A DNA stretch of 40,886 nt. Source: Candidatus Bipolaricaulota bacterium. GTDB taxonomy: Bacteria; Bipolaricaulota; Bipolaricaulia; UBA7950; UBA9294. The translations under genes and the position numbers were made by a program. Of the stretch, positions 20,075 to 40,005 are shown piece by piece. The stretch is from positions 1 through 40,886 of the forward strand of contig JAUVYF010000006.1 of the NCBI GenBank assembly GCA_030603215.1. The letters are read 5' to 3'. Below the pieces are notes generated by a model that saw only the letters and a list, made by a program, of their open reading frames with translations, made no database searches and was not told where the DNA came from. Position 1 is the first letter of the stretch. Each line of letters starts with the position of its first letter.

Positions 20075-20791
20075 TTAGAATGACCGAAATTCCAATGCTA
20101 TCGGATCCTCGACCTCCAACTTACCTCGTATTAAGAAGCCCTCTCCATACCTCTTTCCTATAAGTGATCCATAATAGGCCATGCGGCTGCGGATAAACCA
20201 ATCCGTCTGGGGCGAGGTAAGCCGTGTCGGCGCGTAGCTCGATTCATCCGCTCTGAATTGCGTGGTATAGGCATAGATTGCTTCCATCTTCTGATCGAAT
20301 TGGTCAGTGATATCGACGATGAATGTCGGATCGAACTCCTCCCATGCCATATAGTAGAGAATCTTGGTTGGACGATGGCTCTCTTGGCCTGTCTCATAGC
20401 GGGGGAGCCCGGCGAGAAATATCCCTTCGTAGGCCAGTTCGCTTGCGTGCGCATGGTCGGGATGCCGCACGCACCAATGGGGAATGAAAACCAGCTGTGG
20501 CTTCCAACGACGAACAACCTCGACCACTTTATGCTTGGCCGGAGTAGTCGCGCGAAGGTTTCCATCCTCGAGATCCAGGTTCTCCCTTGTGGTCACACCA
20601 AGGATCTCAGCGGCGGCTGTCGCCTCCTGCCGGCGCGTCACTACCGTTCCTCGGGTCCCCAACTCGCCACGGACCATGTCCACAAGGACAATAGATCGGC
20701 CAGTGCTAGCCAATTTGGCGAGCGTCCCCCCACAGCCAAGCTCGATGTCGTCCGGGTGAGCACCAAAAGCGAGTACATCTGCTTCAGCCAT
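20075..20791 (-). CDS. bshB: Bacillithiol biosynthesis deacetylase (LmbE/PIG-L family)
   Basis: Zinc-dependent deacetylase that removes acetate from GlcNAc-malate, step two of bacillithiol synthesis. It is 238 aa. The LmbE motif AFGAHPDDIELGCGGTLAKLA supplies the catalytic Asp and metal ligands (HPDD), and HWCVRHPDHAHASELA supplies the distal zinc His. ATG 20791 has GGAGG 6 nt upstream; GTG 20797 in frame has none. It overlaps the bshC end (stop 20786-20784). Closest to the BshB1 type by context. Confidence 0.95.
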   Translation of the reverse strand: MAEADVLAFGAHPDDIELGCGGTLAKLASTGRSIVLVDMVRGELGTRGTVVTRRQEATAAAEILGVTTRENLDLEDGNLRATTPAKHKVVEVVRRWKPQLVFIPHWCVRHPDHAHASELAYEGIFLAGLPRYETGQESHRPTKILYYMAWEEFDPTFIVDITDQFDQKMEAIYAYTTQFRADESSYAPTRLTSPQTDWFIRSRMAYYGSLIGKRYGEGFLIRGKLEVEDPIALEFRSF

Positions 20792-22349
20792 TTTCACCCT
20801 CCAAGGTTATCACATGATGTGAGAAATCGTCAACTCGTCCCATCGAGAAAAGTCTATTCACAAACTCAGATCCATATCGGTTGATGAAATAGGGCAGAGG
20901 AAAGACGCGCTCCTGGGGTCTTCCTCTTGGGAAGAGAGCGTTACAAAGTTGTTGGAGCTTCCGCGCTCCAAGGCCGCGCTTTGCCAGCTCGGCCCGGATG
21001 GCACGATTCTCCAGCTGATCAATGTTATAGAGGGAGCTTGTTCGAGCCTTCTCTCTCCTTTTTTCCAAACCGGGGTCGATCTCTTCAAGAAGGGCGCGCA
21101 GCGGAACAAACGCCTGGGCTGTTGTCTCTCGTGCCGCCGAAAACCGCGATTTTAGCTCCTTTGGCGCAAGCTCGCGCAGTACCTGTCTGGCGTTGAATGT
21201 TGCCGAGAGAATAGCGGCAACGCTCGTCCCGTAGCGCGTAATCAGATCGGCCTCTTCTTGAGCCAACACGGTATAGCTCTTCCTCGGGAAGAGGACCGGC
21301 TGCGGCAGGCGAAAGAGCTGATACAGTGGCTTCAGCATGGCATGATACGCGGTTTCTCCTGGACCGAGAACGTTCGCCACACTCGGAAGGAGTGTGTCGG
21401 AAAGCAGTGGACGGAGAGCGGCATCGGTCGAGTAGCGCTCGGGATGTTCTATCACTTCCGTAAGATGATCGAAAGGGGATTTCACCCGGACCCTACGTCC
21501 GTCAGCATCACGGGTGAACAGGCGCCCCGCCCTATCAGGGGATAGGGCCGGCTCGTAACCCGCATCACTAAGACTTGTGGCGGCTTCGCGCAAGTGCTGC
21601 CCAATCGCCTCTTGTTTCTCTAAAACCGTGCGAAAGAAAGTACTCGCGGGGGAGCAAAGAACCGATGGATCGACAATGACAAGGCCACGACTAGAGAACA
21701 GGCGCAACCAAATCCGCGCGTGCCAGGCGCAGTAGTTCTCTCCTGGCTGAGGGGCAAACAACCTCTTCACAGACGAGCAGTTAGCGATGGCGGGGAGGGT
21801 ATCAAGATACGTTTGGTAGCCGCGCAGAACCTCCTTGGTCAGCGGAAGATCGGAGATCGGGCGCCCTTGCTCTTCCCACGCGAAGGAAACCACGCCAACC
21901 TCACCGTCCTGTTTGAGAAGGTAGGCACGGTTGATCTCAGTGAAGTCATGATCCTCGCTGGCCAGCCAAAAGAGAGGAACAACTTTCACATGGAGCTCCC
22001 TTTCCAACAATTCAGCCAGGCGAATCGTAGTAATGATCTTGTAGAGCGTGTAGACCGGCCCACCGAGGAATCCAGCCTGTTGACCCCCAGTCACGCAGAA
22101 GACCGATTGCTGCCTCAGGGCAGCAATGTTCTCCAGTGCAACGGGATCGGCCTGGAGGCGCGCGTTGTAGGTCTCGAGAAGGCTGCAAACCTCCTCCCTG
22201 GGGTAGTCCACCTCGCGGCGAGCTGTCAGTGCCGCTGCGAACCCCGACGGAAGGTGCGAAAAGAAAGACGCGGCCATTCCTTGGCCGGAGATGTAGTCAA
22301 GGTACAATCTGTTCCCTGGGTAGACCGTCTGAGCATCAAGGCTATTCAG
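20784..22349 (-). CDS. bshC: Bacillithiol biosynthesis cysteine-adding enzyme
   Basis: Predicted to ligate cysteine to GlcN-malate, the last step of bacillithiol synthesis. It is about 521 aa with the family signature VTGGQQAGFLGGPVYTLYK, LFWLASEDHDFTEIN and a long C-terminal coiled-coil. The start is uncertain. CTG 22349 is preferred because GGAGGAGG lies 5 nt upstream and the alignable N-terminus ([19 protein letters not shown]) begins there. TTG 22373 and GTG 22439 in the same frame lack a ribosome site and extend into the methyltransferase gene. The CTG overlaps the methyltransferase stop as CTGAATAG. Confidence 0.93.
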   Translation of the reverse strand: MNSLDAQTVYPGNRLYLDYISGQGMAASFFSHLPSGFAAALTARREVDYPREEVCSLLETYNARLQADPVALENIAALRQQSVFCVTGGQQAGFLGGPVYTLYKIITTIRLAELLERELHVKVVPLFWLASEDHDFTEINRAYLLKQDGEVGVVSFAWEEQGRPISDLPLTKEVLRGYQTYLDTLPAIANCSSVKRLFAPQPGENYCAWHARIWLRLFSSRGLVIVDPSVLCSPASTFFRTVLEKQEAIGQHLREAATSLSDAGYEPALSPDRAGRLFTRDADGRRVRVKSPFDHLTEVIEHPERYSTDAALRPLLSDTLLPSVANVLGPGETAYHAMLKPLYQLFRLPQPVLFPRKSYTVLAQEEADLITRYGTSVAAILSATFNARQVLRELAPKELKSRFSAARETTAQAFVPLRALLEEIDPGLEKRREKARTSSLYNIDQLENRAIRAELAKRGLGARKLQQLCNALFPRGRPQERVFPLPYFINRYGSEFVNRLFSMGRVDDFSHHVITLEGENG

Positions 22350-23103
22350 CGCGTCCTCCTCCTTTTTCGGCAACGAGGATGAGTCTGGGGCTCTCGGCTC
22401 GGTGAGGAGCGCCCTGAAGCGACCCGTAGCGCCGCACACCTGTTAATCCCGCTCTCTCCAGCAATTCCTCCATCTCGGATGGTGTATACATTCGCACCGA
22501 TTCGTAGAACACCTTCTCCTCACCGCCCGGGCTGATCACTCGGACCTTCTTCTCCACACGACGTCGATCTTCGCTTACGCGCCGCTCGATCCAAAAACGC
22601 TTGCCGTCACGAACCAGCTCTTCCTTGGGGATGAGGTGAGTGATCACCCAGTCGCGGTTGAGATAGTCGATCAGGAACCGTCCCCTTGACTGCAGGGACC
22701 GGCTGACTGTGACAAGAACCGCTCTGTTCTCTTCGTCATCTTCGAAATACCCAAACGACGTGAACATGGACAACACCATGGCAAAGTGATCTACATAGGG
22801 GATATGTCGCATGTCGCTATGCAGAAGCTCAACGTCTCCCGCTCCTATTGCTGCAAGCCGCTCCTTGGCGACCTCGAGGAGTTCCCGCGAAAGGTCGAGG
22901 CCACTCAGCTGGTGGAAGCCCGCCTTATGCAGCGCGAGAAGATGACGCCCGGCCCCACATCCCAAATCAAGGAGCGGCTCCTCTCTCGGGGGAGCGACCA
23001 GATCGATGATTGCCCGCACATCTGCCCGTGCTTCGACATCGTCGCGATGTGGATAAAGATCGAGATATTCCTGACGAAAGCTCCGCACATACCAGGGGAT
23101 CAT
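22342..23103 (-). CDS. SAM-dependent methyltransferase in the bacillithiol operon (possible N-methyl-bacillithiol synthase)
   Basis: Class I methyltransferase of 253 aa. SAM-binding motif I is [16 protein letters not shown] (about 43-58), motif [20 protein letters not shown], then [14 protein letters not shown] and the strand [15 protein letters not shown]. The C-terminal half holds [18 protein letters not shown]. It is translationally coupled to the preceding MBL gene (ATGA, 23103-23100) and reads into bshC. N-methyl-bacillithiol is known from Chlorobium, where a SAM methyltransferase (NmbA) is implicated. The operon position here suggests the same role, but that is inference from context. 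Confidence 0.85.
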
Positions 23104-23741
23104 GCTATCCCATGCTCCTTCTTGTAGATCAACCAGTTCTGCTTCAGGTGGACAAACGCCTCGAAGTTAGGCTGAAGGAGAAACGGGTTCGTCCTCCGCT
23201 CTCTCCCGATCGTCGACTGCGCTGCGGTACCGTAATCGTGTCCTGGGAAAACGCGGGTCGAATCAGGTAGGACAAGGAGTTTCTTGTGAAGAGACGCATA
23301 TTCTTCTCGCGCCCCCGAGCCGAACCCGGTCCCTCCTACTTTGCCAACAAATAGGGTATCTCCAGTGAAGACCGCGTCTTCGATGTGAATGCATATTGAA
23401 TCCTCGGTATGTCCCGGGGTATGCAGAATCGTCACCCCCAAGCTCCCTAAGGGGAATTGAGCCCCGTCCTCCACGCGGATCCCGGTTGTCGGGTCCGTAG
23501 TTCTAAAAAACAGCGGTTGCTTCCCGGTGAGTCGTCCGATTACGTAGTTCCCGTTCGTGTGGTCGATGTGGTCGTGGGTAACGAAGATATAGACGATCTC
23601 ATATCCCTTTCCACGCGCGTAATCCACGATCATCTCCGGAGAGAAAGAAGGGTCGACCACGAGGGCCCTACCACTCACCTCATCGGCGGCAAGATAGCCA
23701 AAGTTGCGATCCCCACCTGTTACGAATTGCTTAATTAACAT
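23100..23741 (-). CDS. MBL-fold hydrolase (glyoxalase II / persulfide dioxygenase-like)
   Basis: Metallo-beta-lactamase fold protein of 213 aa. Metal ligands lie in [29 protein letters not shown] and FPGHDYG. The tail [14 protein letters not shown] resembles ETHE1/hydroxyacylglutathione hydrolase proteins, which act on thiol adducts. As first gene of the bacillithiol operon it may act on bacillithiol persulfide or S-acyl-bacillithiol (inference). ATG 23741 has AGGAAGGA directly upstream. A promoter candidate lies at 23784-23812. Confidence 0.85.
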
Positions 23742-23783
23742 TCCTTCCTCTTACCTCCAAGTATCGAATAGATGAATCTAAAA

Positions 23784-23812
23784 AGTGTAAGCACTTCCGT
23801 CTTCACACACAA
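23784..23812 (-). promoter_or_regulatory. Candidate promoter of the bacillithiol operon
   Basis: Minus strand TTGTGT, 17-nt spacer, TACACT, about 40 nt before the MBL gene start. No other promoter candidate stands out within the tightly packed operon. Confidence 0.4.
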
Positions 23813-23991
23813 CACGCCCACACAAAGCCGGCGCTCCTCTTCTGTCAGCATATGGGGAGCGCTGTATCCGGGCCGGTCCAGCCAGCGCTTCGAGGATACT
23901 TGTAACACTCTTGTGGTAGTTGATGGTCGCCTTCGTGCCAAATTGATAACTGGTCCCTATGCTAGCGCAAGGCTTGAATGATCGAGAATGA

Positions 23992-24039
23992 GATTCACTT
24001 GACAAGGGCCATGCTTTCGGTTATAAAGCCTAGTGAATC
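23992..24039 (+). promoter_or_regulatory. rrf2 promoter inside an inverted repeat
   Basis: TTGACA (23999-24004), exactly 17 nt, TATAAA (24022-24027), giving a start near 24034. The perfect 8-nt inverted repeat GATTCACT (23992-23999) / AGTGAATC (24032-24039) flanks the core promoter. This suits autoregulation by the Rrf2 protein encoded just downstream. Confidence 0.65.
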
Positions 24040-24070
24040 CATATATTTACTGGAGATAGTGAGGTTACTT

Positions 24071-24502
24071 ATGTCATTCTCAACCAGAGGACGATACGGC
24101 ACAAGAGCGATGCTCGAGTTGGCTCTAAATTATGGGAAAGGACCTGTTCCCCTCAAGGATGTTGCCAAACGCCAGGAAATCTCTCAGAAATATTTAGATC
24201 AGCTGGTTATGTCTCTCAAGACGATTGGCCTGGTAAGGAGTATCCGTGGGGCTCGCGGGGGGTATGTCTTAGCTAGATCTCCCGCGCAAATAAAACTCAG
24301 CGAAGTGATAAGGGCCTTGGATGGCCCTATCCTATCAGTGGATTGTCTTAACGATCCTAGCGCTTGTAATAGAGTTAGCTTCTGCGCAGTCCGAGAAGTG
24401 TGGGAAGAGGCACGGCAAGCTATAAATAATGTTCTAGAGTCGACAACCCTACAGGACTTAGCAGATCGCCAAAGAAGGAAGTACCTAGAGGAAAACAAAT
24501 AG
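24071..24502 (+). CDS. Rrf2/IscR-family Fe-S-sensing transcriptional regulator
   Basis: Winged-helix repressor of 143 aa heading a Fe-S assembly operon. The DNA-binding half contains RGRYGTRAMLELA, ISQKYLDQLVMSLKTIGLVRS and the wing RGARGGYVLAR. Three cysteines at 92, 99 and 105 (DCLNDPSACNRVSFC) match the positions of the 2Fe-2S ligands of E. coli IscR (92, 98, 104). ATG 24071 is preferred with GAGGT 5 nt upstream; the frame opens at 23978, upstream of the predicted transcription start. It is likely to sense cluster sufficiency and repress its own operon. Confidence 0.9.
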   Translation: MSFSTRGRYGTRAMLELALNYGKGPVPLKDVAKRQEISQKYLDQLVMSLKTIGLVRSIRGARGGYVLARSPAQIKLSEVIRALDGPILSVDCLNDPSACNRVSFCAVREVWEEARQAINNVLESTTLQDLADRQRRKYLEENK

Positions 24503-24554
24503 AGGTTTAGTAAGAATGGAAGCGACGAGTTTTCAGGAAAGGAGTGAATCCAAG

Positions 24555-24776
24555 ATGAAAGAAAAGGTTGAGAAAGCATTAGAGGGAATAAGGCCATCTC
24601 TTCTGGGCCATGGCGGAAATGTGGAACTGGTTGAAGTTAGTGATGATGGCGTGGTGAAAGTGAGATTGACAGGTGCCTGCATAGGTTGTCCTATGAGCCA
24701 GATGACCCTAAAGCAAGGAATCGAAGAGACCCTCAAGAGAGAGGTCTCTGAGGTAACAAGAGTGGAGGCTGTTTAG
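24555..24776 (+). CDS. NifU C-terminal-domain (Nfu-type) Fe-S carrier
   Basis: Small scaffold/carrier of about 73 aa that transfers 4Fe-4S or 2Fe-2S clusters. The sequence begins with KEKVEKALEGIRPSLLGHGGNVELVEV and carries the cluster motif GACIGCPMSQMTLKQGIEETL (CxxC). ATG 24555 matches the family start and has AAGGAG 10 nt upstream; ATG 24516 in frame would add 13 residues. Lies 52 nt after rrf2 and before nifS. Confidence 0.9.
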   Translation: MKEKVEKALEGIRPSLLGHGGNVELVEVSDDGVVKVRLTGACIGCPMSQMTLKQGIEETLKREVSEVTRVEAV

Positions 24777-24881
24777 GAAGACGGTATTCACGTTTTTTTC
24801 GGGGGAGGGGGGGGTCGTCTTCTGTTATCCAAGCTTACGTGCTCTTGAAGGCGCCACGCCAAACCCTGAGACGGGAGAATC

Positions 24882-26051
24882 ATGAGAAGAATATACCTCG
24901 ATTATGCGGCTACAACACCAACGCATCCTTTAGTTCTAAAGGCCATGCTGCCGTGGTTTACAGATGGCTTTGGCAACCCCTCCAGTATCCATTCCTTTGG
25001 CCAAGAAGCCAATGGAGCTATCGAGGAGGCCCGAGAGAAGGTAGCCCAGCTTATCGGGGCTAAAGGCAACGAGATTGTCTTCACCGGCAGCGGTACAGAA
25101 GCGGATAACTTCGCCATAAAGGGAGTGGCTTACGCTAAAGAACATGAAGGGAAGCACATTATCACTACTGCTATTGAACATCACGCAGTGATAGAGACGT
25201 GTAAGTTCTTGGAGAAGAGAGGCTTCAATGTGACCTATCTCTCAGTAGATAGAGATGGTTTAGTAGATCTCGGGGAAGTTAAGAAAGCCATTACCGATGA
25301 AACTATTCTCATCTCGGTGATGCACGCCAACAATGAAATAGGGACAATCGAACCTATACAGGAGATAGCTAGAATCACCAAGGATAGGGAGATCTGCTTT
25401 CACACTGATGCAGTACAGACTGTGGGGCACCTCCCTGTAGATGTCGATGAACTTAAGGTAGATCTGGTCAGCATATCTGCTCATAAATTCTGTGGTCCCA
25501 AGGGAGTAGGGGCACTCTATATCAGAAAAGGCACCAAAATAGTTCCCTTCATGCACGGCGGCGAGCAAGAACACGGGCGGCGAGCGAGCACTCAAAACGT
25601 CCCAGGAATAGTAGGATTTGGAAAGGCTTGCCAGCTTGCTCAACAGGAGATGGGACAGGAGAAAGAACGACTGGAAACCCTGCGCGACAAACTGATAAAG
25701 GGAATATTGAATCGCATTGACCACGTCCATTTAAATGGTCATCCTACGCAAAGGCTGCCCAACAACGTCAACATAAGCCTAGAATTTGTGGAAGGAGAAT
25801 CGATTCTCCTCAACCTAGATTTGATGGGTATTGCCGCCTCCACTGGTTCTGCCTGTAGTTCGAGCGTGTTAGAGGCTTCCCATGTGCTACTAGCGTTAGG
25901 GCTTCCGCATGAGTCAGCTCATAGCTCTCTGCGCCTCAGCTTAGGACAAGAAACCACGGAAAAAGATGTGGATTACGTACTAGAGAAGCTGCCCCAGATT
26001 GTCAACAAGCTCCGAACAATGTCACCATTGTATAAGCCAGGCAAGAAATGA
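24882..26051 (+). CDS. Cysteine desulfurase, NifS/IscS family
   Basis: PLP enzyme converting cysteine to alanine and enzyme-bound persulfide for Fe-S assembly. It is 389 aa. YLDYAATTPTHP at the N-terminus, HANNEIGTIEPI, the PLP lysine K202 in SISAHKFCGPKG, and the catalytic loop cysteine C325 in TGSACSSS are intact. The loop reads GRRASTQNV where most homologues have GRRSGTENV. The long active-site loop marks group I (IscS/NifS) rather than SufS. Stop overlaps the iscU start (ATGA at 26048-26051). The 105-nt gap upstream holds a T7/G-rich stretch of unclear role. Confidence 0.95.
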   Translation: MRRIYLDYAATTPTHPLVLKAMLPWFTDGFGNPSSIHSFGQEANGAIEEAREKVAQLIGAKGNEIVFTGSGTEADNFAIKGVAYAKEHEGKHIITTAIEHHAVIETCKFLEKRGFNVTYLSVDRDGLVDLGEVKKAITDETILISVMHANNEIGTIEPIQEIARITKDREICFHTDAVQTVGHLPVDVDELKVDLVSISAHKFCGPKGVGALYIRKGTKIVPFMHGGEQEHGRRASTQNVPGIVGFGKACQLAQQEMGQEKERLETLRDKLIKGILNRIDHVHLNGHPTQRLPNNVNISLEFVEGESILLNLDLMGIAASTGSACSSSVLEASHVLLALGLPHESAHSSLRLSLGQETTEKDVDYVLEKLPQIVNKLRTMSPLYKPGKK

Positions 26052-26455
26052 AGAGAACAAAAGATTTGCGGTCATTGTATAGCGAAAAAGTCATGGAGCA
26101 TTTCCAGAATCCCAGAAATGTCGGAGAGATGGAGAGCCCTGATGGAATAGGCCACGTTGGAAATCCTGTATGTGGCGATATCATGGAACTCTATATCAAG
26201 GTAAGGGATGATATTATCATAGATGCCAAGTTCAAGACATTTGGGTGTGGAGCAGCCATTGCTACGAGCTCCATGGTCACCGAGATGGTAAAAGGGAAGA
26301 CCATAGAACAAGCGCTAAAGATATCTAATAAAGCAGTAGCAGAGGCCCTGGATGGTCTTCCGCCTATTAAGATGCACTGCTCGGCTCTAGCCGAGGAGGC
26401 ACTCAAGCTAGCTATCGAAGACTATTTAGCTAAGTCAAAACGCAAAGAAGAATAG
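26048..26455 (+). CDS. iscU: IscU/NifU N-terminal-type Fe-S scaffold
   Basis: Scaffold on which NifS sulfur and iron form a 2Fe-2S cluster. It is 135 aa. YSEKVMEHFQNPRNVG at the start and the three ligand cysteines C42 (GNPVCGD), C67 (TFGCGAAIA) and C111 (IKMHCSALA) are present, with D44 and H110 as in IscU. It has no C-terminal Nfu domain, which is provided by the separate gene at 24555. Translationally coupled to nifS. No hscA/hscB or ferredoxin gene follows; the operon ends in a repeat field. Confidence 0.94.
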   Translation: MKRTKDLRSLYSEKVMEHFQNPRNVGEMESPDGIGHVGNPVCGDIMELYIKVRDDIIIDAKFKTFGCGAAIATSSMVTEMVKGKTIEQALKISNKAVAEALDGLPPIKMHCSALAEEALKLAIEDYLAKSKRKEE

Positions 26456-26509
26456 TGAATAGTAGGTAGTGAGTGGTGAATGGTAAGGACCAACTGATAA
26501 CTGAAAACT
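26456..26509. repeat. Heptamer quasi-repeat tract
   Basis: Period-7 run of degenerate words (agtgaat, agtaggt, agtgagt, ggtgaat, then ctgataa, ctgaaaa) reaching the left end of the MITE. A similar tract follows the MITE at about 26667-26690. Confidence 0.6.
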
Positions 26510-26665
26510 GAGACCTCTGAAAAACCCTGTTTGCTGCCAATTCTGCAGATTTCGCCTATCAAGACCGACAGCCGTAAATCCAGTAATAGTCTTTGCTTGC
26601 GCATGTTGACGGAATTCTTTGCCCTTGCACAATACAGGGAAAAGAGGGGTTTTTCAGAGGTCTCA
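26510..26665. mobile_element. MITE-like element, copy 1 (156 bp)
   Basis: Perfect 18-bp terminal inverted repeats GAGACCTCTGAAAAACCC (26510-26527 and complement at 26648-26665) bound a non-coding 156-bp element. Copy 2 at 35634-35788 has the same ends and about 70 percent internal identity by eye. No transposase is encoded, so a full-length element elsewhere would have to mobilise it. Confidence 0.8.
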
Positions 26666-26689
26666 AAATTGATTACTGACAACTGCTCA

Positions 26690-27011
26690 ACCGCGAAGGA
26701 TGCAAAGTACACCCTCTTTTCTTCTTCTCTACAATCATATTATGGTTTTGTATGTAAACAAAGAATATGCCTTCCTCCGCGATCTCCGCGCCCTCCGCGG
26801 TAAAATGTCTTTTGTTTCTAGTGAGGATAAGATGGTTTTGTTTTTCCCCTATTGTTGGTTTCCTCTGCGCCCTCTGCGGTAAAATGTCTTTGTTTTAGCA
26901 GTAGGATATCTTTGCTCTTAACCATATTGTTGCCTTTCTCTGCGATCCTGGCGTCTTGAGTGAGTGAAACGAACAGGCGAGAGATAAATCTTGGCTGGAG
27001 TGTGAGGAGCC
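26690..27011. repeat. Nonamer CTCTGCG repeat field
   Basis: Two tandem units of about 80-90 bp, each a CTCTGCGCC/CTCCGCGGT nonamer run followed by taaaatgtctttt/g. The second (about 26860-26946) aligns with 11951-12035. At 26957-26990 a gtgagtgaaacgaacaggcg word is present that occurs inverted near 12250-12270. No gene is supported. Confidence 0.65.
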
Positions 27012-28172
27012 TCATTTAATGCCCATTTTCTTGGTGGCAACCACCTCGGGCAACATGAAGCCAATAGATTGATCGGCCGTGACCCCTCGTCTGTCAGCCA
27101 GAGTCAACAGCAATGCGTGGACAATGGCAAGATGCGCAGCCTGGATCTTGCTCGATGAAGGGCCCTCAGGCTTGGCATTGCTCTTGATAAGGTAATCGGC
27201 TGTCTGGCCCAAAGGAGTGTCCACATTCTCAGTTATGACTACTGTGATGGCTCCTTTATCCCTCGCCCGCCTCAACGCATCGTATACAAAGCCTGTTCCG
27301 CCACTAGCTGAAATCCCAACAATTATGTCTCCTGGATTAACAGCCAAGGCAATATAGCGAGATAACCCCATCTCCTCTTCGCCTATTCCCTTAGAAAAAC
27401 TGACTGGCTGGGCGGTAGCCAGATCGTTGGTAAAGACCAGGATTGGCACACCGGTTTCTAGCCCCTGTCCACTCATCTCCATGGCCACCAAGCCACTGGC
27501 TCCTGCCCCAGTAACCACAACCTTATGCCCTGATTCGATCTGCGCGTTGAGCACTTCCACTACCTGCTCAAGCCCATCGAGTGCGGTCTCCAAGGTAGCC
27601 AAGATACCCTCAGCATCCTGGCGCAACACACGAGCCAGCTTCTCTCTAGAAGATTGACAGTCAGAGAGATCTACACTAACCATCATCGGCTTATTGATAT
27701 CAATCACCTGTCCAATGGTATCGATGAGCGTGTAACCCTCATAACTGTATTGAGTGAACTCTAAAGTAGTGCCCGGCAGATTGCCAATCGCCAGATCCAG
27801 TCCAGTTAATTGACTGATGAGACTGGTCTTCCCGCTATTGAATACTCCTAGAATTGCCACCCGGTCGCCCGGGGAGAAAGCATCCCGAAAGCGTGATTTG
27901 ATCGCTTCTGTGCCCTCACCAGTGACCATCGAGGCTGGGACAAGATCTAGGCCCAGCTTGTCTCGCGTGGCGCTCAGCTGAGCCTTTTCAACGAGATCCA
28001 TCTTGTTGGCTACTAAGAAGAACGGCAATTGTGCATCTTCGATGGCTTCTAGGAAAACGCGCATCGTACTTATCTGTGGATCCAGCATGTTTATCATGAG
28101 AATAGCGCCGCTCGGTTCAAGACGATCGAATGGGGTAGAGACTTTCTTAAGAACGCGTTTGCTCGCAGACAT
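27012..28172 (-). CDS. Circularly permuted GTPase fused to a MurQ-like SIS domain
   Basis: Fusion of 386 aa that I do not recognise as a named family. Residues about 1-165 carry GTPase motifs in permuted order: G4 NKMD (56-59), G5-like PASMVTGEG (79-87), G1 GVFNSGKTS (109-117), G2-like PGTT (133-136) and G3 DTIG (151-154), as in RbgA/RsgA-type proteins. Residues about 200-365 are a SIS sugar-phosphate domain closest by eye to MurQ/GKRP: VVTGAGASG (220), GDIIVGISASGGT (281-293) and EGPSSSKIQAAH (336-347). The positions of both MurQ catalytic Glu residues appear to hold Q236 and K261, so sensing rather than etherase activity is likely (inference). ATG 28172 has AAGGGAG 6 nt upstream. A glmS-type ribozyme lies in its leader. 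Confidence 0.85.
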   Translation of the reverse strand: MSASKRVLKKVSTPFDRLEPSGAILMINMLDPQISTMRVFLEAIEDAQLPFFLVANKMDLVEKAQLSATRDKLGLDLVPASMVTGEGTEAIKSRFRDAFSPGDRVAILGVFNSGKTSLISQLTGLDLAIGNLPGTTLEFTQYSYEGYTLIDTIGQVIDINKPMMVSVDLSDCQSSREKLARVLRQDAEGILATLETALDGLEQVVEVLNAQIESGHKVVVTGAGASGLVAMEMSGQGLETGVPILVFTNDLATAQPVSFSKGIGEEEMGLSRYIALAVNPGDIIVGISASGGTGFVYDALRRARDKGAITVVITENVDTPLGQTADYLIKSNAKPEGPSSSKIQAAHLAIVHALLLTLADRRGVTADQSIGFMLPEVVATKKMGIK

Positions 28173-28341
28173 TTTTTCTCCCTTGAGTACCTGATCGATC
28201 AAGCATCATCTAGTAATGTGTTTGCCCGTTAGATTCGCCATCCTAGCTGTGAGAGCTACGCACGTAGCCTACATCGGGGAACTTTCCAGCAAATAGAGTG
28301 AATTCCTCACATAGATGGTAACGCTATGAAACACTTGCACT

Positions 28342-28551
28342 GCACTCCTTCATTGTCCCGCCGGTCGCCCGGCGGATTTGTACAGGAGCGCTTTTCCCTT
28401 TGGAAGGGAAGAAGAAGACTGTGCCAGCCTTGAAGGCTTCCGCTGATCTCTCGATTTTCCCCCTCGGCATCATGCCTTAGAGTTAGCCCCAAATTACAAC
28501 AGGGAACCTCCACCTCGTCAGCTGGGGATCATAATCCCCAGCCCATGCGCT
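28342..28551 (-). ncRNA. glmS-type self-cleaving ribozyme/riboswitch, with an inserted helix
   Basis: Read on the minus strand. The cleavage-site context is A|GCGC (28551/28550). The P1-position hairpin GCTGGGGAT-TATG-ATCCCCAGC (28542-28521) is followed by the near-invariant core TGACGAGGTGGAGGTT (28520-28505). Further on are ATCGA...TCAGCGGAAGCC (28455-28435), which match the glmS TCGGCGG-GCC block, and a P3-like hairpin GGCTG-GCA-CAGTC. TTCCCTT/AAGGGAA comes next. A final arm (AGCGCTCC/GGAGTGC) encloses a GNRA-capped CCGCCGG-GCGA-CCGGCGG hairpin (28375-28358). About 45 nt between GGAGGTT and ATCGA form an extra helix (TTCCC/GGGGA) absent from the Bacillus RNA. The class senses glucosamine-6-phosphate. 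The RNA lies about 170 nt before the GTPase-SIS gene. Confidence 0.82.
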
Positions 28552-28564
28552 GCTCTTCCCTCTG

Positions 28565-28594
28565 TATCTAGAATCGAGTTTACATATTTGTCAC
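28565..28594 (-). promoter_or_regulatory. Candidate promoter of the ribozyme/GTPase-SIS transcript
   Basis: Minus strand GTGACA, 18-nt spacer, TAGATA, giving a start near 28558, a few bases before the ribozyme cleavage site. The -35 overlaps an AGGAGGTGACAAAT-ATG-TAA start-stop. A second candidate further upstream is TTGAAT, 18 nt, TAATAT. Confidence 0.35.
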
Positions 28595-28751
28595 CTCCTA
28601 TGGAATATTACCTTCATCTTCCAACAAGATTCAATGACAAGAGAGATCTCTCCCCCTCAATATTGTCCTTCTACTTGAAGTATTCTTCGTCTGGAAATCA
28701 CGCACCCACAAGTGGTAAAGTTTGATACCCAAACAATAATAGGGAGTGTGG

Positions 28752-30062
28752 ATGTTCTCATTAAAGGCTTTTCTTCACCACGAGGTAAAACCAGCGTTGG
28801 GTTGTACAGAACCTGGTGCCGTCGCGCTTGCGGTAGCCAGGGCAGCACAAGAGCTACCTCGCGATGAGGAAATCTCCTTTGTGCGAGTAACGGTGAGCGA
28901 AGGAATCTACAAGAATGGAGTGGCAGTTGGCATTCCTGGAGTCAAGGGAGCAAAGGGCAATGCCGTCGCTGCCGCCCTTGCAATGACCTGCGGACAAGCA
29001 GAGTACGGCCTACAAGCACTGAAAGACTGCAAGCCTGCAGATGTGTCAACGGCGCTAGAACAACTACGGCAAGAACGGGTAGAAATCATCCGGCGGATGG
29101 ATGGACCGGAGATCTACGTAGAAGCCAGCCTCTTTACGCCGCATCATCAAGCAACCTGTATTATTGAACAGGAGCACGCTGCCATCACTAAAGTAGTAAA
29201 AGATGGCAAGGTAGTTTTTGAGAAAAACGCCTCGACTTCAAACAAGAAAGGTAAGGGAACTTTCTTGTCACTAATCAGAGCCCTCTCCTACAAGCAATTA
29301 CTGGAACTAGTTGAAGAAATGGATTCACAAGATGTGAGCTACATTTGGGATGGAATACGGATGAACCGTGCTATCGCGGAATACGGCCTTAGGCAAAAGG
29401 CTGACAACGGTCTGAATTCTGGTCAAATCATGCAAACAATGATCGCAGAAAGAGTTCTCAAGAACGATCTTGGTTATCGTGTCCGCGGTTGCTGCTCGGC
29501 AGCCGTATCTGCCCGTATGACAGGAGTACAGATGCCGGTAATGAGCAGCGCCGGGAGCGGTAACTCCGGAATCCTTACCATTCTTCCCATAGCTATGGTT
29601 GGAGAGAAGAAAGGTAACACAGATGAGCAAATCGCTGAGGCTATCGTTATAGGTCATCTAACGACAAGCTTTGTTCGGGCAAGACTAGGACTCCTTGCTC
29701 CAATTTGTGGAAGCGTAGTAGCAGCTGGCAGCGGAGCGGCTGCTGGGTTAACCCACTTACTTGGAGGAGGATTGGAGCAAGCCACTCAGGCTGTGAAGAT
29801 GATGCTGGCAAACCTTGCCGGAGTTCTCTGCGATGGAGCAAAGGCAACCTGCTCCCTAAAGGCGGGAACTACAGCGCTGGAAGCTTATCTTGTCGCCTTG
29901 TTCGCCCTAAAGGGACAAAACGTCTCCAATGAGGGCATAGTCGGAGCGTCGATAGAGGAAACAATAGATAATGTAGCGCATATCAGTCAGCAGGGAATGA
30001 AAGATGTTGACAAGGTAGTGCTCGAAGTATTACAGCAACGCGCCCGTGAGAACTACATCTAA
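28752..30062 (+). CDS. cyuA: L-cysteine desulfidase (CyuA/CdsB, UPF0597 family)
   Basis: Iron-sulfur enzyme predicted to break L-cysteine into pyruvate, ammonia and sulfide. It is 436 aa. KPALGCTEPGAVALA at the N-terminus is the family hallmark. Four cysteines fit the 4Fe-4S ligands of the Methanocaldococcus enzyme in spacing: C18, the Cys in LLAPICGSVV, and a pair seven apart in VLCDGAKATCSLKAG. Glycine-rich SSAGSGNSGI supports substrate binding. ATG 28752 has GGAG 5 nt upstream; GTG 28746 is in frame. It converges on cysS with a 4-nt overlap of the stop codons. Serine/threonine deaminase activity is an alternative for family members. Confidence 0.88.
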   Translation: MFSLKAFLHHEVKPALGCTEPGAVALAVARAAQELPRDEEISFVRVTVSEGIYKNGVAVGIPGVKGAKGNAVAAALAMTCGQAEYGLQALKDCKPADVSTALEQLRQERVEIIRRMDGPEIYVEASLFTPHHQATCIIEQEHAAITKVVKDGKVVFEKNASTSNKKGKGTFLSLIRALSYKQLLELVEEMDSQDVSYIWDGIRMNRAIAEYGLRQKADNGLNSGQIMQTMIAERVLKNDLGYRVRGCCSAAVSARMTGVQMPVMSSAGSGNSGILTILPIAMVGEKKGNTDEQIAEAIVIGHLTTSFVRARLGLLAPICGSVVAAGSGAAAGLTHLLGGGLEQATQAVKMMLANLAGVLCDGAKATCSLKAGTTALEAYLVALFALKGQNVSNEGIVGASIEETIDNVAHISQQGMKDVDKVVLEVLQQRARENYI

Positions 30063-31468
30063 GCCCAGATCGTTCCTTGTGGGGTATCTTTCAGCGTAAT
30101 CCCCAGTTTGGCTAATCGCGCGCGGATGGAATCAGCAAGGGCAAATTCCTTGTGCACGCGCAGTTCAGCGCGCAGATCAATCAACAAACGGATAAGTTCA
30201 TCCTGCAGGTCTCGCCCTCTTTCTCTTTCCCTTTGGAATAACCCCAGTGGGTTACCAAGTTCACGGATAAGCCCCACAACCTGTGTTAGCGCTTGCCGAT
30301 CCTGTCCCTCGGCGGTCTTCCGGAAGCGATTGGCTTCGGAGACAAGTTCCTGAATAACAGCAATAGCCGCAACAGTGTTGAGATCATCATCCATTGCCCC
30401 GCTGTAACGCTCACGAAACTCACCAAGCGAGTCGACAAATTCCCGTCCAGTCAATTCAACCTCCCCTTTCTCTCCGGTGGCAAACTCCGCTTCCACCTCA
30501 TCAATTAAGGCATATACGCGGGAAAGAGCTTTGCTAGCTTCCGCGAGACCTGTCTCTGAATAATCAAGTGGTTTGCGGTAGTGGCGGGAAAGGTAAAAGT
30601 AGCGAACGCTCTCTGCGTCAAACTTCTCTAACACTTGATACGCGTAAGCAAAGTTACCTAGGGATTTAGACATCTTCTCCCCATTAAATGTGAGCATGCC
30701 GTTGTGCAGCCAAAAACGCGAGAAAAGCTTGCCACTCCTTGCTTCCGCCTGAGCAATCTCGTTCTCGTGATGAGGGAAGATAAGATCGTTTCCACCGGCA
30801 TGAATGTCAAGCGTATCCCCAAGAACTTCTCCAGAGAGAACAACACACTCCGTATGCCATCCTGGTCTTCCCTCACTCCACGGAGATTCCCACTTCGGCT
30901 CACCCGGTTTGGCTGCCTTCCACAACGTAAAATCAAGGGCGTCTTTTTTCTTCGTCGAACATGCGACGCGAGCCCCAACTTCGAGTTCCTCAAGTCGCCG
31001 TCCAGAAAGCTTTCCGTAATTCTTGAACGCTGCCACACTATAATACACATCGCCATCACATTCATAGGCATAACCCTTCTCAATCAACGTCTTGATTAAC
31101 TCGATCATGTCGCCAATATGCTCGGTGGCTCGAGGGCTGTTCGTTGGTTTCTTGACATTGAGTTGTTCCAGCAAGTCAAAATATGCCTTGGTGTACTGGT
31201 GAGCAAGCTTCTCTACCGCCAACCCCGTTTCCAGCGCACGCGCAATCAGCTTGTCCTCAATATCGGTAATATTCTGAACATAAACAACCTTCCATCCAGC
31301 AAAACGCTCCATATACTTGCGTAGCGTATCAAAGACGATAATTGGCCGAACGTTTCCAATATGCAGGTAATCATAGACGGTTGGGCCACAAACGTACATC
31401 TTCACAGTCTTACCGTCCTGTGGCTGAAATGTCTCTTTCTTGCGCGTGAGGGTGTTATACAGTTTCAC
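30059..31468 (-). CDS. cysS: Cysteinyl-tRNA synthetase
   Basis: Class I synthetase charging tRNA-Cys, 469 aa. Zinc and catalytic motifs: MYVCGPTVYDYLHIGN (zinc Cys and the HIGH-type HIGN), HTECVVLSG and FPHHENEIAQ (remaining zinc ligands), and KMSKSLGNF. The C-terminal anticodon domain is complete. GTG 31468 is preferred: GGAGG lies 9 nt upstream and VKLYNTLTRKKETF matches the family N-terminus. The frame is open to 31501 with ATG 31492 as an alternative. Divergent from the COG2426 gene and convergent with cyuA. Confidence 0.96.
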   Translation of the reverse strand: MKLYNTLTRKKETFQPQDGKTVKMYVCGPTVYDYLHIGNVRPIIVFDTLRKYMERFAGWKVVYVQNITDIEDKLIARALETGLAVEKLAHQYTKAYFDLLEQLNVKKPTNSPRATEHIGDMIELIKTLIEKGYAYECDGDVYYSVAAFKNYGKLSGRRLEELEVGARVACSTKKKDALDFTLWKAAKPGEPKWESPWSEGRPGWHTECVVLSGEVLGDTLDIHAGGNDLIFPHHENEIAQAEARSGKLFSRFWLHNGMLTFNGEKMSKSLGNFAYAYQVLEKFDAESVRYFYLSRHYRKPLDYSETGLAEASKALSRVYALIDEVEAEFATGEKGEVELTGREFVDSLGEFRERYSGAMDDDLNTVAAIAVIQELVSEANRFRKTAEGQDRQALTQVVGLIRELGNPLGLFQRERERGRDLQDELIRLLIDLRAELRVHKEFALADSIRARLAKLGITLKDTPQGTIWA

Positions 31469-31550
31469 TGAACCCCGCCTCCAGACATCCATTATAGACA
31501 ACGGTACAATGGACTACCATCTTCAGCGACAAATCACTACACTTAGCCTC

Positions 31551-38151: not shown

Positions 38152-38196
38152 TTGACAAAGGGCAACACAATACGTAAGAATATTGCGGGTTGTGTT
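38152..38196 (+). promoter_or_regulatory. abiE promoter with palindromic operator
   Basis: TTGACA (38152-38157), 17 nt, TAAGAA (38175-38180). The perfect inverted repeat AACACAA (38164-38170) / TTGTGTT (38190-38196) covers the -10 and start site. AbiEi antitoxins are known to repress their own operon by binding inverted repeats, so this is a likely operator. Confidence 0.65.
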
Positions 38197-38221
38197 ACTT
38201 GATGTCAAGAAGGTGAATGAA

Positions 38222-39028
38222 GTGGACGTTCATGGATTCTTTGAGAGAAATCCAGTCTTCTCTACAAGCAAGTTTGCAGCATTTCTTCAGTCACAGAGGG
38301 CTGGTAGCAACAGGACGACGGAATCGCTCCTTCGATATCATACAAATCAGGGTCGCTTGCTCCGGGCACGTCGCGGATTGTACGTAGTGGTCCCGGCAGG
38401 TTTCAATCCAACATCCTACCAGGTTGACCCTTACCTGCTAGCAGCTAAGATGACCGACGATGCAGTGCTTGGCTACCACACCACGCTGCAATTCTATGGC
38501 AAGGCCTACTCCTCCAGTAGTCGGTTCCTCTACCTGACTAAGCGTGCAACACGTGTTACCACGTTCCGCACGAATGAATTTCGTGGTGTCCGATTCCCTA
38601 AACAGCTTCAGGAGGAAGGAAAAGAATTCTCTGGCATAGAGATGCATGAGCGGCTGGGAATGCCCGTTCGGGTTACTAGCCTGGAACGAACATTGGTGGA
38701 TGTCCTCGACCGACCGGAACTGGGGGGAGGATGGGAAGAGATATGGCGATCCCTAGAAGCAGTGGAGTTCTTCGATTTGGACGCAGTTGTGAGGTATGCC
38801 CTGCTTTTGGAGAACGCGACCACTGTGGCTAAGGTCGGATTTTTCTTGGAGCAACATCGGGATAGATTCATGGTCGAGGATGATCACCTGGCGACACTAC
38901 GCGCCCATTGCCCACGGAGTCCACACTATATGATGCGCACCACCAGAGAATCAGGGCGTTTGATCCCAGAGTGGAACTTGGTGGTTCCTCTGGAGATCCT
39001 GGAGCGTAGTTGGGAGGAAGTGCTGTGA
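38222..39028 (+). CDS. abiEi: AbiEi-type antitoxin/transcriptional repressor
   Basis: Antitoxin of a type IV toxin-antitoxin system, 268 aa. An N-terminal winged-helix region (SKFAAFLQSQRAGSNRTTESLL, then LLRARRGLYVVVP) precedes the AbiEi C-terminal domain with DPYLLAAKMTDDAVLGYHTTLQFYG, the VTSLERTLVDVLDRPELGGGWEE motif and a helical end. GTG 38222 is chosen because AGAAGG lies about 8 nt upstream and the frame opening at 38183 would start before the predicted transcription start. Coupled to abiEii by a GTGA overlap. Predicted cytoplasmic DNA-binding protein. Confidence 0.88.
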   Translation: MDVHGFFERNPVFSTSKFAAFLQSQRAGSNRTTESLLRYHTNQGRLLRARRGLYVVVPAGFNPTSYQVDPYLLAAKMTDDAVLGYHTTLQFYGKAYSSSSRFLYLTKRATRVTTFRTNEFRGVRFPKQLQEEGKEFSGIEMHERLGMPVRVTSLERTLVDVLDRPELGGGWEEIWRSLEAVEFFDLDAVVRYALLLENATTVAKVGFFLEQHRDRFMVEDDHLATLRAHCPRSPHYMMRTTRESGRLIPEWNLVVPLEILERSWEEVL

Positions 39029-40005
39029 GGATGTCCAAGGAAAGGCTTCTTTCCGAAGCGGAGGCCACCGGGTTCCGCACGGAGATGCTTGAAAAGGCCA
39101 TACTTCTACTCCACCTCCTGGAGGCTCTCTTCCATCACCCCTTTCTGAAGGATCGGCTAGCACTGAAAGGTGGAACTGCGCTAAACCTGTTTCTGTTCGA
39201 GCTTCCACGACTTTCGCTAGACCTAGACCTCAATTATGTGGGGAGCCCTGGGATCGAGGTCATGCGTGAGGAAAGGCCAAAGATTGAGGAAGCGATCCGG
39301 ACGGTGTGCGAACGTGAGGGGCTCAGCATCCGTCGGCAGCCATCCAAGAATGAACATGGTGGTGGAAAATGGTCGCTTCGTTACGAAAGTGCATTGGGAA
39401 CAGGGGGCAACTTGGAAATCGATCTCAACTATGTGTTCCGTGTTCCGCTATGGCCTCTTGTGGCGCGTGATTCCTACTCCATTGGTACAACCCAAGCATG
39501 TGGCATTCCTATGCTTGATCTACACGAGCTGATAGCAGGCAAACTGGCCGCCCTCTTGTCACGCAAGGCAAGTCGTGATCTGTTCGATGTGCATTTCTTC
39601 CTCAGGTCTACGGATCTCGACGCAAAACGCTTACGGTTGGCGTTCATCGTTTACGGAGGCATGAACCGCCGAGATTGGCGCATGGTAAACATTCAAGACG
39701 TAGACTTTCAAGAAAAGGAGCTAAAGGACCGGCTCTTGCCGCTCGTGCGGAAGAAGTCCACGGATTCATCGGAGACTGTTCAGCGCTGGGCAATCCGCCT
39801 CGTGGAAGAGTGTCAGGAGATGCTTGGCTGTGTGCTTCCTTTCACCGATGCGGAAATGGAATTCTTGACCCGGCTGCTCGACTATGGTGAGATCGAACCT
39901 GCATTGCTAACGCAAGATGAACCGCTGGGTGAACGCATCCGGCAGCATCCCATGCTGCGATGGAAGGCACTGAATGTTCGGCAATACAAGGGTCGGACAA
40001 CCTAA
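39025..40005 (+). CDS. abiEii: AbiEii-type nucleotidyltransferase toxin
   Basis: Toxin of the AbiE pair, 326 aa, DUF1814/nucleotidyltransferase fold. Motif I is KGGTALNLF (48-56) with S64-L-D66-L-D68 as the metal-binding DxD. Motif II is in NLEIDLNYVFR. The later DLHELIAGKLAALLSRKASRDLFDVHFFL matches the family Lys and RDLFD motifs. All catalytic residues appear intact, so it is probably functional. Family members act on nucleotides or tRNA ends and cause abortive infection in Lactococcus. GTG 39025 has GGGAGG 7 nt upstream and overlaps the antitoxin stop. Confidence 0.88.
   Translation: MRMSKERLLSEAEATGFRTEMLEKAILLLHLLEALFHHPFLKDRLALKGGTALNLFLFELPRLSLDLDLNYVGSPGIEVMREERPKIEEAIRTVCEREGLSIRRQPSKNEHGGGKWSLRYESALGTGGNLEIDLNYVFRVPLWPLVARDSYSIGTTQACGIPMLDLHELIAGKLAALLSRKASRDLFDVHFFLRSTDLDAKRLRLAFIVYGGMNRRDWRMVNIQDVDFQEKELKDRLLPLVRKKSTDSSETVQRWAIRLVEECQEMLGCVLPFTDAEMEFLTRLLDYGEIEPALLTQDEPLGERIRQHPMLRWKALNVRQYKGRTT

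Follow-up and report, generated by a model that had tools for sequence, protein, structure and literature searches.

Judged from its sequence, the element at positions 28562-28334 of the minus strand in the window, the 40,886-nt stretch of DNA analysed in the present work, is a structurally complete glmS-class ribozyme that is situated in the 5' leader of a gene for a GTPase-SIS fusion protein and is predicted to cleave itself. The glmS ribozyme, which has been known almost only as a control element of glmS, here has a second target that is evolutionarily stable, and its hosts are uncultured bacteria of the phylum Bipolaricaulota. The most satisfactory explanation, which we consider probable, is that cleavage triggered by GlcN6P represses the GTPase-SIS protein as a member of the hexosamine pathway. 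It is based on the sequence, the structure, the linkage to the gene, the single clade of carriers, the separate glmS without a ribozyme and the operon of an archaeal orthologue, and it is from these that we infer the cleavage, the ligand, the direction of control and the activity of the protein.

A search of the whole window with cmscan against Rfam 15 returns a single match above the gathering threshold, which is to RF00234 (glmS) at 28562-28334 and scores 55 bits against a threshold of 37 (E 3.6e-10); the match is full length, covering model positions 1-167 of 167, and the 1.74 Mb genome that holds the window contains no second RF00234 match above gathering. The original prediction had placed a glmS-type ribozyme on this strand from a series of landmarks, and had named a search with Infernal and RF00234 as the appropriate check. 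The score bears out this assignment, and all of the landmarks can be located on the minus strand: the AGCGCA cleavage context at 28551-28546, the P1 hairpin at 28542-28521, the core strands TGACGAGGTGGAGGTT (28520-28505) and TCAGCGGAAGCC (28446-28435), the P3 hairpin at 28431-28415, and the GNRA-capped arm, which takes the form of a GCGA-capped arm at 28375-28358. Homology to RF00234 puts the predicted cleavage site, between A(-1) and G1, at 28551|28550, the same position as had been proposed. The lower limit of the element, which had been set at 28342, has to be moved, because the 3' strand of P3.1, GUGC, which pairs with GCAC in loop 3 and is kept in all five of the sequences compared below, occupies 28340-28337, so that the ribozyme runs past the earlier limit. 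The probability that the match is a chance or artefactual product of the covariance model is negligible: a relative of another genus (G014) is by itself barely above gathering, at 37.2 against 37, but the E-value of the window match, the presence of pseudoknots to which the Rfam model gives no score and the exact co-occurrence of RF00234 with one gene all speak against an artefact, and the conservation data already contradict it.

Because the Rfam model is nested, the pseudoknots go unscored and were laid out by hand. The helices P1, P2, P3 and P4, a GCGA-capped P4a, and the pseudoknots P2.1, P2.2 and P3.1 can all be recognised in five sequences, that of the window and those of four relatives. 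In the window (all coordinates on the minus strand), the P1 hairpin is delimited by both the RF00234 match and the hand layout, and the 5' strand of P2.2, CGC (28549-28547), has as its partner GCG at 28443-28441, a pairing that holds in all five sequences. The core strand UGACGAGGUGGAGGUU (28520-28505) contains the 5' strands of P2.1 (CGA, 28517-28515) and P2 (GGAGG, 28511-28507), while the region AAUCGAGAGAUCAGCGGAAGCCUUC (28456-28432) contains the 3' strands of P2.1 (UCG, 28454-28452), P2.2 and P2, and fits the B. subtilis pattern, AUCGA-N4-U-CNGCGG. The loop of the P3 hairpin, GGCAC, supplies the 5' side of P3.1, which in the five sequences joins the loop-3 letters GCAC or GGCAC to a 3'-terminal GUGC or GUGCC, and P4 (28391-28342) contains the IL4 purines (AAA / ACAA) and the GCGA tetraloop. 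Single mismatches occur in P4 and P4a of some relatives. In the aligned core of the five genomes, standard pairs make up 99.1% of the 112 pair cells, and this falls to 32-57% when the partners are slid by 1-3 columns. A single pair, in P3, has changed on both sides (AU to GC), and several others have changed on one side. Covariation does not exceed the shuffle control; it is weak because the alignment contains only two independent lineages, four of the five sequences coming from one genus.

The 3' strand proper of P2.1 is located in AAUCGAGAGAUCAGCGG, and an insertion of about 48 nt (28504-28457) therefore falls between the 5' strand of P2 and P2.1; the RF00234 alignment has 54 inserted positions compared to 6 in the model. 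The insertion is composed of a first hairpin, CCCUG/UGGGG, the invariant GGGGCUAACUC and a second hairpin, and the stems of both hairpins are kept in the five sequences though their letters change. At the P2.2 pair 5-53, where the T. tengcongensis core has C-G, all five sequences have A/A. It is imaginable, though unlikely, that the A/A at 5-53 together with the insertion has shifted the specificity or kinetics of the ribozyme, for example towards another amino-sugar phosphate tied to the MurQ-like protein, given that A5, A53 and the insertion are common to all five ribozymes and that the SIS domain resembles that of MurQ. The active-site strands AGCGC, GACGAGG, UCG and GCGG are, however, unchanged in the five ribozymes, and catalysis by glmS ribozymes needs a free amine such as that of GlcN6P. 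The 5-53 pair, moreover, varies among glmS ribozymes, being poorly conserved in natural ones (PMC7125110). Mutating it in the T. tengcongensis core nevertheless costs about 1000-fold on average (PMC7125110), and activity of a ribozyme with A/A at these positions is therefore not to be presumed.

The gene downstream of the ribozyme starts with an ATG at 28172 and extends to 27012 on the minus strand, beyond a leader of 164 nt (28336-28173) in which neither a terminator-like site nor a glmS remnant was found. Its product has the composition that had been predicted, a GTPase and an SIS domain without a glutaminase, and with only one SIS domain it departs from the glutaminase and two SIS domains that identify GlmS. 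The GTPase part matches the RsgA_GTPase and YqeH models and is circularly permuted: the motifs G4 (NKMD), G1 (GVFNSGKT) and G3 (DTIGQ) occur in that order, and an alignment of 17 orthologues places G4/G5 before G1-G3. All 17 share the GTPase-then-SIS layout and the C-terminal end ATKKMGIK. A resemblance of this end to the catalytic tail of GlmS was considered and dropped, the nearer counterpart being VVATNEKL in the MurQ alignment. By both sequence and fold the SIS part, which is fused to the GTPase as a MurQ-like domain, is nearest to MurQ, GmhA and MurR (fold matches 4lzj, 4s12 and 7en7; mean pLDDT of the AlphaFold2 model of the protein 75), and of these MurQ and MurR bind amino-sugar phosphates. 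The protein is not an etherase of the MurQ family by score (47.6 bits against a cut-off of 302), and the position of E. coli Glu83, a catalytic residue in MurQ, is an invariant Gln in 17 of 17 orthologues, whereas that of Glu114 is an invariant Glu; the replacement of Glu83 implies that the GTPase-SIS protein is not a standard MurNAc-6P etherase. The gene is surrounded by a sulfur/thiol cluster (20784-31501) that includes BshC, a Rrf2/CymR-like regulator, NifS, NifU, CysS and serine dehydratase alpha, and the window also carries a toxin-antitoxin pair of the AbiEi/AbiEii type (38183-40005, plus strand).

The relatives retrieved by protein comparison are MAGs of Candidatus Bipolaricaulota, along with a small number of others. 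Among 100 genomes of the phylum the gene is present in 15, and RF00234 in five: that of the window, three of the same genus (G001, G002 and G003), and G014, which belongs to another genus of the same family (f1), so that the carriers represent two genera; the filters used in the 100-genome search were stricter and may miss weak matches. In each of the five carriers the gene directly behind the ribozyme is the GTPase-SIS gene, in agreement with the earlier proposal that the target is a gene other than glmS. Within family f1 the same 5 of 33 genomes hold both the ribozyme and the gene, a co-occurrence whose naive probability among the 33, 4e-6, is overstated because four of the carriers are close kin. 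The carriers constitute one clade (support 95/95). Comparison of the window with G014 gives identities of 33% for the upstream flank, 30% for the leader and 65% for the ribozyme, with the catalytic strands unchanged, so the core has been conserved in relatives across two genera, as a genuine element had been expected to be. The upstream neighbour differs among carriers: it is a divergent serine dehydratase gene in the window, a same-strand cysS in G001 and another divergent gene in G014. The ribozyme in front of the GTPase-SIS gene is not a stray copy.

The orthologous genes were also searched with permissive Rfam settings and with a model constructed from the five sequences. Real matches were obtained at the window and at locus L009 only, and no ribozyme was found at ten orthologues in another family (f4) or at L010, L019, L020 and L021; weak matches (18 bits or less) were rejected, as they lay opposite the P1 palindrome of the ribozyme itself, on the other strand, or else at the gene's 3' end or well away from the gene. 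The question, raised at the outset, of whether related GTPase-SIS genes carry the ribozyme is accordingly answered in the affirmative for the five f1 genomes and in the negative for f4 and these four loci, which makes the ribozyme a trait of one clade and not of the whole protein family. It was either gained once in the carrier clade or kept solely there.

The simple alternative to a new target, that a glmS gene once intervened and was lost, must be judged against the whereabouts of glmS itself. All five carriers have a full-length, separate glmS elsewhere (about 470 bits), which in the window's genome is on another contig and has no ribozyme, and no RF00234 match was found near glmS in any of the five. 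A glmS-family match exists in 95 of the 100 phylum genomes, and every ribozyme that was found stands before the GTPase-SIS gene, instead of occupying the 5' UTR of glmS that is usual for the class, although membership in it does not require that location. With an intact glmS elsewhere in every carrier, the loss of an intervening copy is disfavoured. The same glmS could be invoked for a relic, a ribozyme that once served a glmS which has moved off and that now persists without function; the failure to find RNase J in the five carriers and the departure of positions 5 and 53 from consensus could be added in its favour. We regard a relic as very improbable, since the core strands are unchanged across two genera while the flanks have diverged to 30-33% identity, the ribozyme tracks the same gene though its upstream neighbours differ in the window, G001 and G014, and the leader is free of any glmS remnant. 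The first two of these observations, conservation of the core far beyond that of the flanks and constancy of the downstream gene, also weigh against a lost glmS.

The retention of full-length glmS in all f1 carriers also means that the GTPase-SIS protein is not their sole source of GlcN6P. Presence of the gene does not complement absence of GlmS within the phylum, given the 95 genomes with a glmS-family match, and this pattern was rejected. In the five carrier genomes no MurQ above cut-off was found, and NagB was not found in four and is weak in G002. Full-length glmS across the phylum falls into two score classes, one of about 465-500 bits, to which the glmS of every ribozyme genome belongs, and one of about 765-850 bits; in G018 and G024 there is one gene from each class.

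By homology to the known class, GlcN6P would act as the cofactor that promotes the cut at 28551|28550, the coding fragment of the mRNA would then begin with a 5'-hydroxyl, and plentiful GlcN6P would lower expression of the GTPase-SIS protein. If this protein belongs to the hexosamine pathway (GlcN6P to UDP-GlcNAc), whether it supplies GlcN6P enzymatically or serves there as a GTP-driven regulator, the circuit would be one of negative feedback, as it is for glmS. In B. subtilis the cleaved glmS mRNA is degraded by RNase J1 (PMC3997798). RNase J (TIGR00649), on which that form of decay depends, was not found in the five carriers (G000-G003 and G014; 87-93% complete, with positive controls), and the B. 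subtilis route may therefore be missing there. RNase Y is present in all five (about 600 bits), and with RNase J not found, cleavage would have to lower expression through RNase Y or in some other way. These genomes raise the question of how a cleaved message with a 5'-OH is removed, or silenced by other means, where no RNase J is detected. On the 5' side of the cleavage site, at 28599-28580 of the minus strand, AGGAGGUGACAAAUAUGUAA combines a ribosome-binding-like site with a minimal AUG-UAA start-stop ORF, the AGGAGG being spaced before the AUG-UAA; a possible promoter (TTGAAT-18-TAATAT, 28634-28605) precedes it and the cleavage site follows it. The element is kept in the four same-genus genomes and absent in G014. 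Cleavage would also take off the leader that bears AGGAGG...AUGUAA.

The contexts of orthologues in other lineages suggest, independently of the ribozyme, a role in the hexosamine pathway. The contig of L021, which is labelled Aenigmatarchaeota (DPANN) and has archaeal neighbours (ATP-dependent ligase, TRM1 and MEMO1), contains a GlmU-like gene, the GTPase-SIS gene and a GlmM-like gene in one overlapping operon (L021:4904-8495), the GTPase-SIS gene having 4-nt overlaps with the GlmU-like gene in front and the GlmM-like gene behind. The former matches TIGR03992 (317 bits, cut-off 292), and the latter matches TIGR03990 at 323 bits, under the cut-off of 439. At L020 the adjoining gene encodes a nucleotide-sugar dehydrogenase whose best match is UDP-GlcNAc C-6 dehydrogenase. 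No GlmS was found in the L021 genome, where the best glmS-family match is PurF, and none above cut-off in that of L010, a Parcubacteria MAG; as these two MAGs are small and their completeness is not stated, the absences are suggestive only.

What the protein does within the pathway can be read in two ways, both of which leave the explanation of the ribozyme as it stands. There is close to an even chance that the GTPase-SIS protein has a regulatory or sensing function rather than an enzymatic one, with the ribozyme tuning a regulator of GlmS or GlmM, which is a sub-case of GlcN6P-triggered repression on the protein side and no rival to it on the ribozyme. GCKR is a MurQ-derived sensor of F6P, GTPase domains are typical of switches, the protein has an invariant Gln at the Glu83 position with Glu114 kept, and a complete glmS coexists with it in all five carriers; on the other hand, the genomes of L021 and L010 lack a found GlmS, and a location between glmU-like and glmM-like genes in L021 suits an enzyme. 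It is possible, but rather doubtful, that the protein is a new, GTP-gated, glutaminase-free source of GlcN6P that replaces GlmS in some small genomes (L021 and L010) and whose feedback by the ribozyme was acquired in one Bipolaricaulota clade.

What is new is a conserved, named and, as far as sequence can indicate function, functionally sensible second target of the glmS ribozyme in Bipolaricaulota, and the linkage would give a GlcN6P-connected role to an uncharacterised and deeply conserved GTPase-SIS family. The glmS ribozyme is described as lying upstream of GlcN6P synthase (PMC11476745), and our literature search found no report that joins it with an SIS domain or with Bipolaricaulota. Among known systems, the protein resembles the circularly permuted GTPases RsgA and YqeH in its motif order (G4-G5-G1-G2-G3), but differs in its fusion to an SIS domain and in having no identified ribosome-binding partner domain. 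It resembles the SIS domains of MurQ and MurR in its best sequence and fold matches, in the kept Glu114 and in a similar ATxx tail, and is unlike MurQ in its Gln for Glu83, its low family score and the GTPase fused in front. The ribozyme shares with its class the full-length match, the cleavage context, P1, P2, P2.1, P2.2, P3, P3.1, P4, the IL4 purines and the GNRA loop; it is distinguished by a target other than glmS, the insertion between P2 and P2.1, the A/A at 5-53 and a host in which RNase J is undetected. McCown et al., in 2011, reportedly found Deinococcus-Thermus variants whose cores have additional stems, a feature that the present form would share, and all but two of 463 glmS ribozymes are said to have lain in glmS mRNAs in the same survey. 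With two such exceptions a location away from glmS is rare and not unprecedented; compared to these forms, the one described here occurs in a different phylum and has a named target to which it is repeatedly linked.
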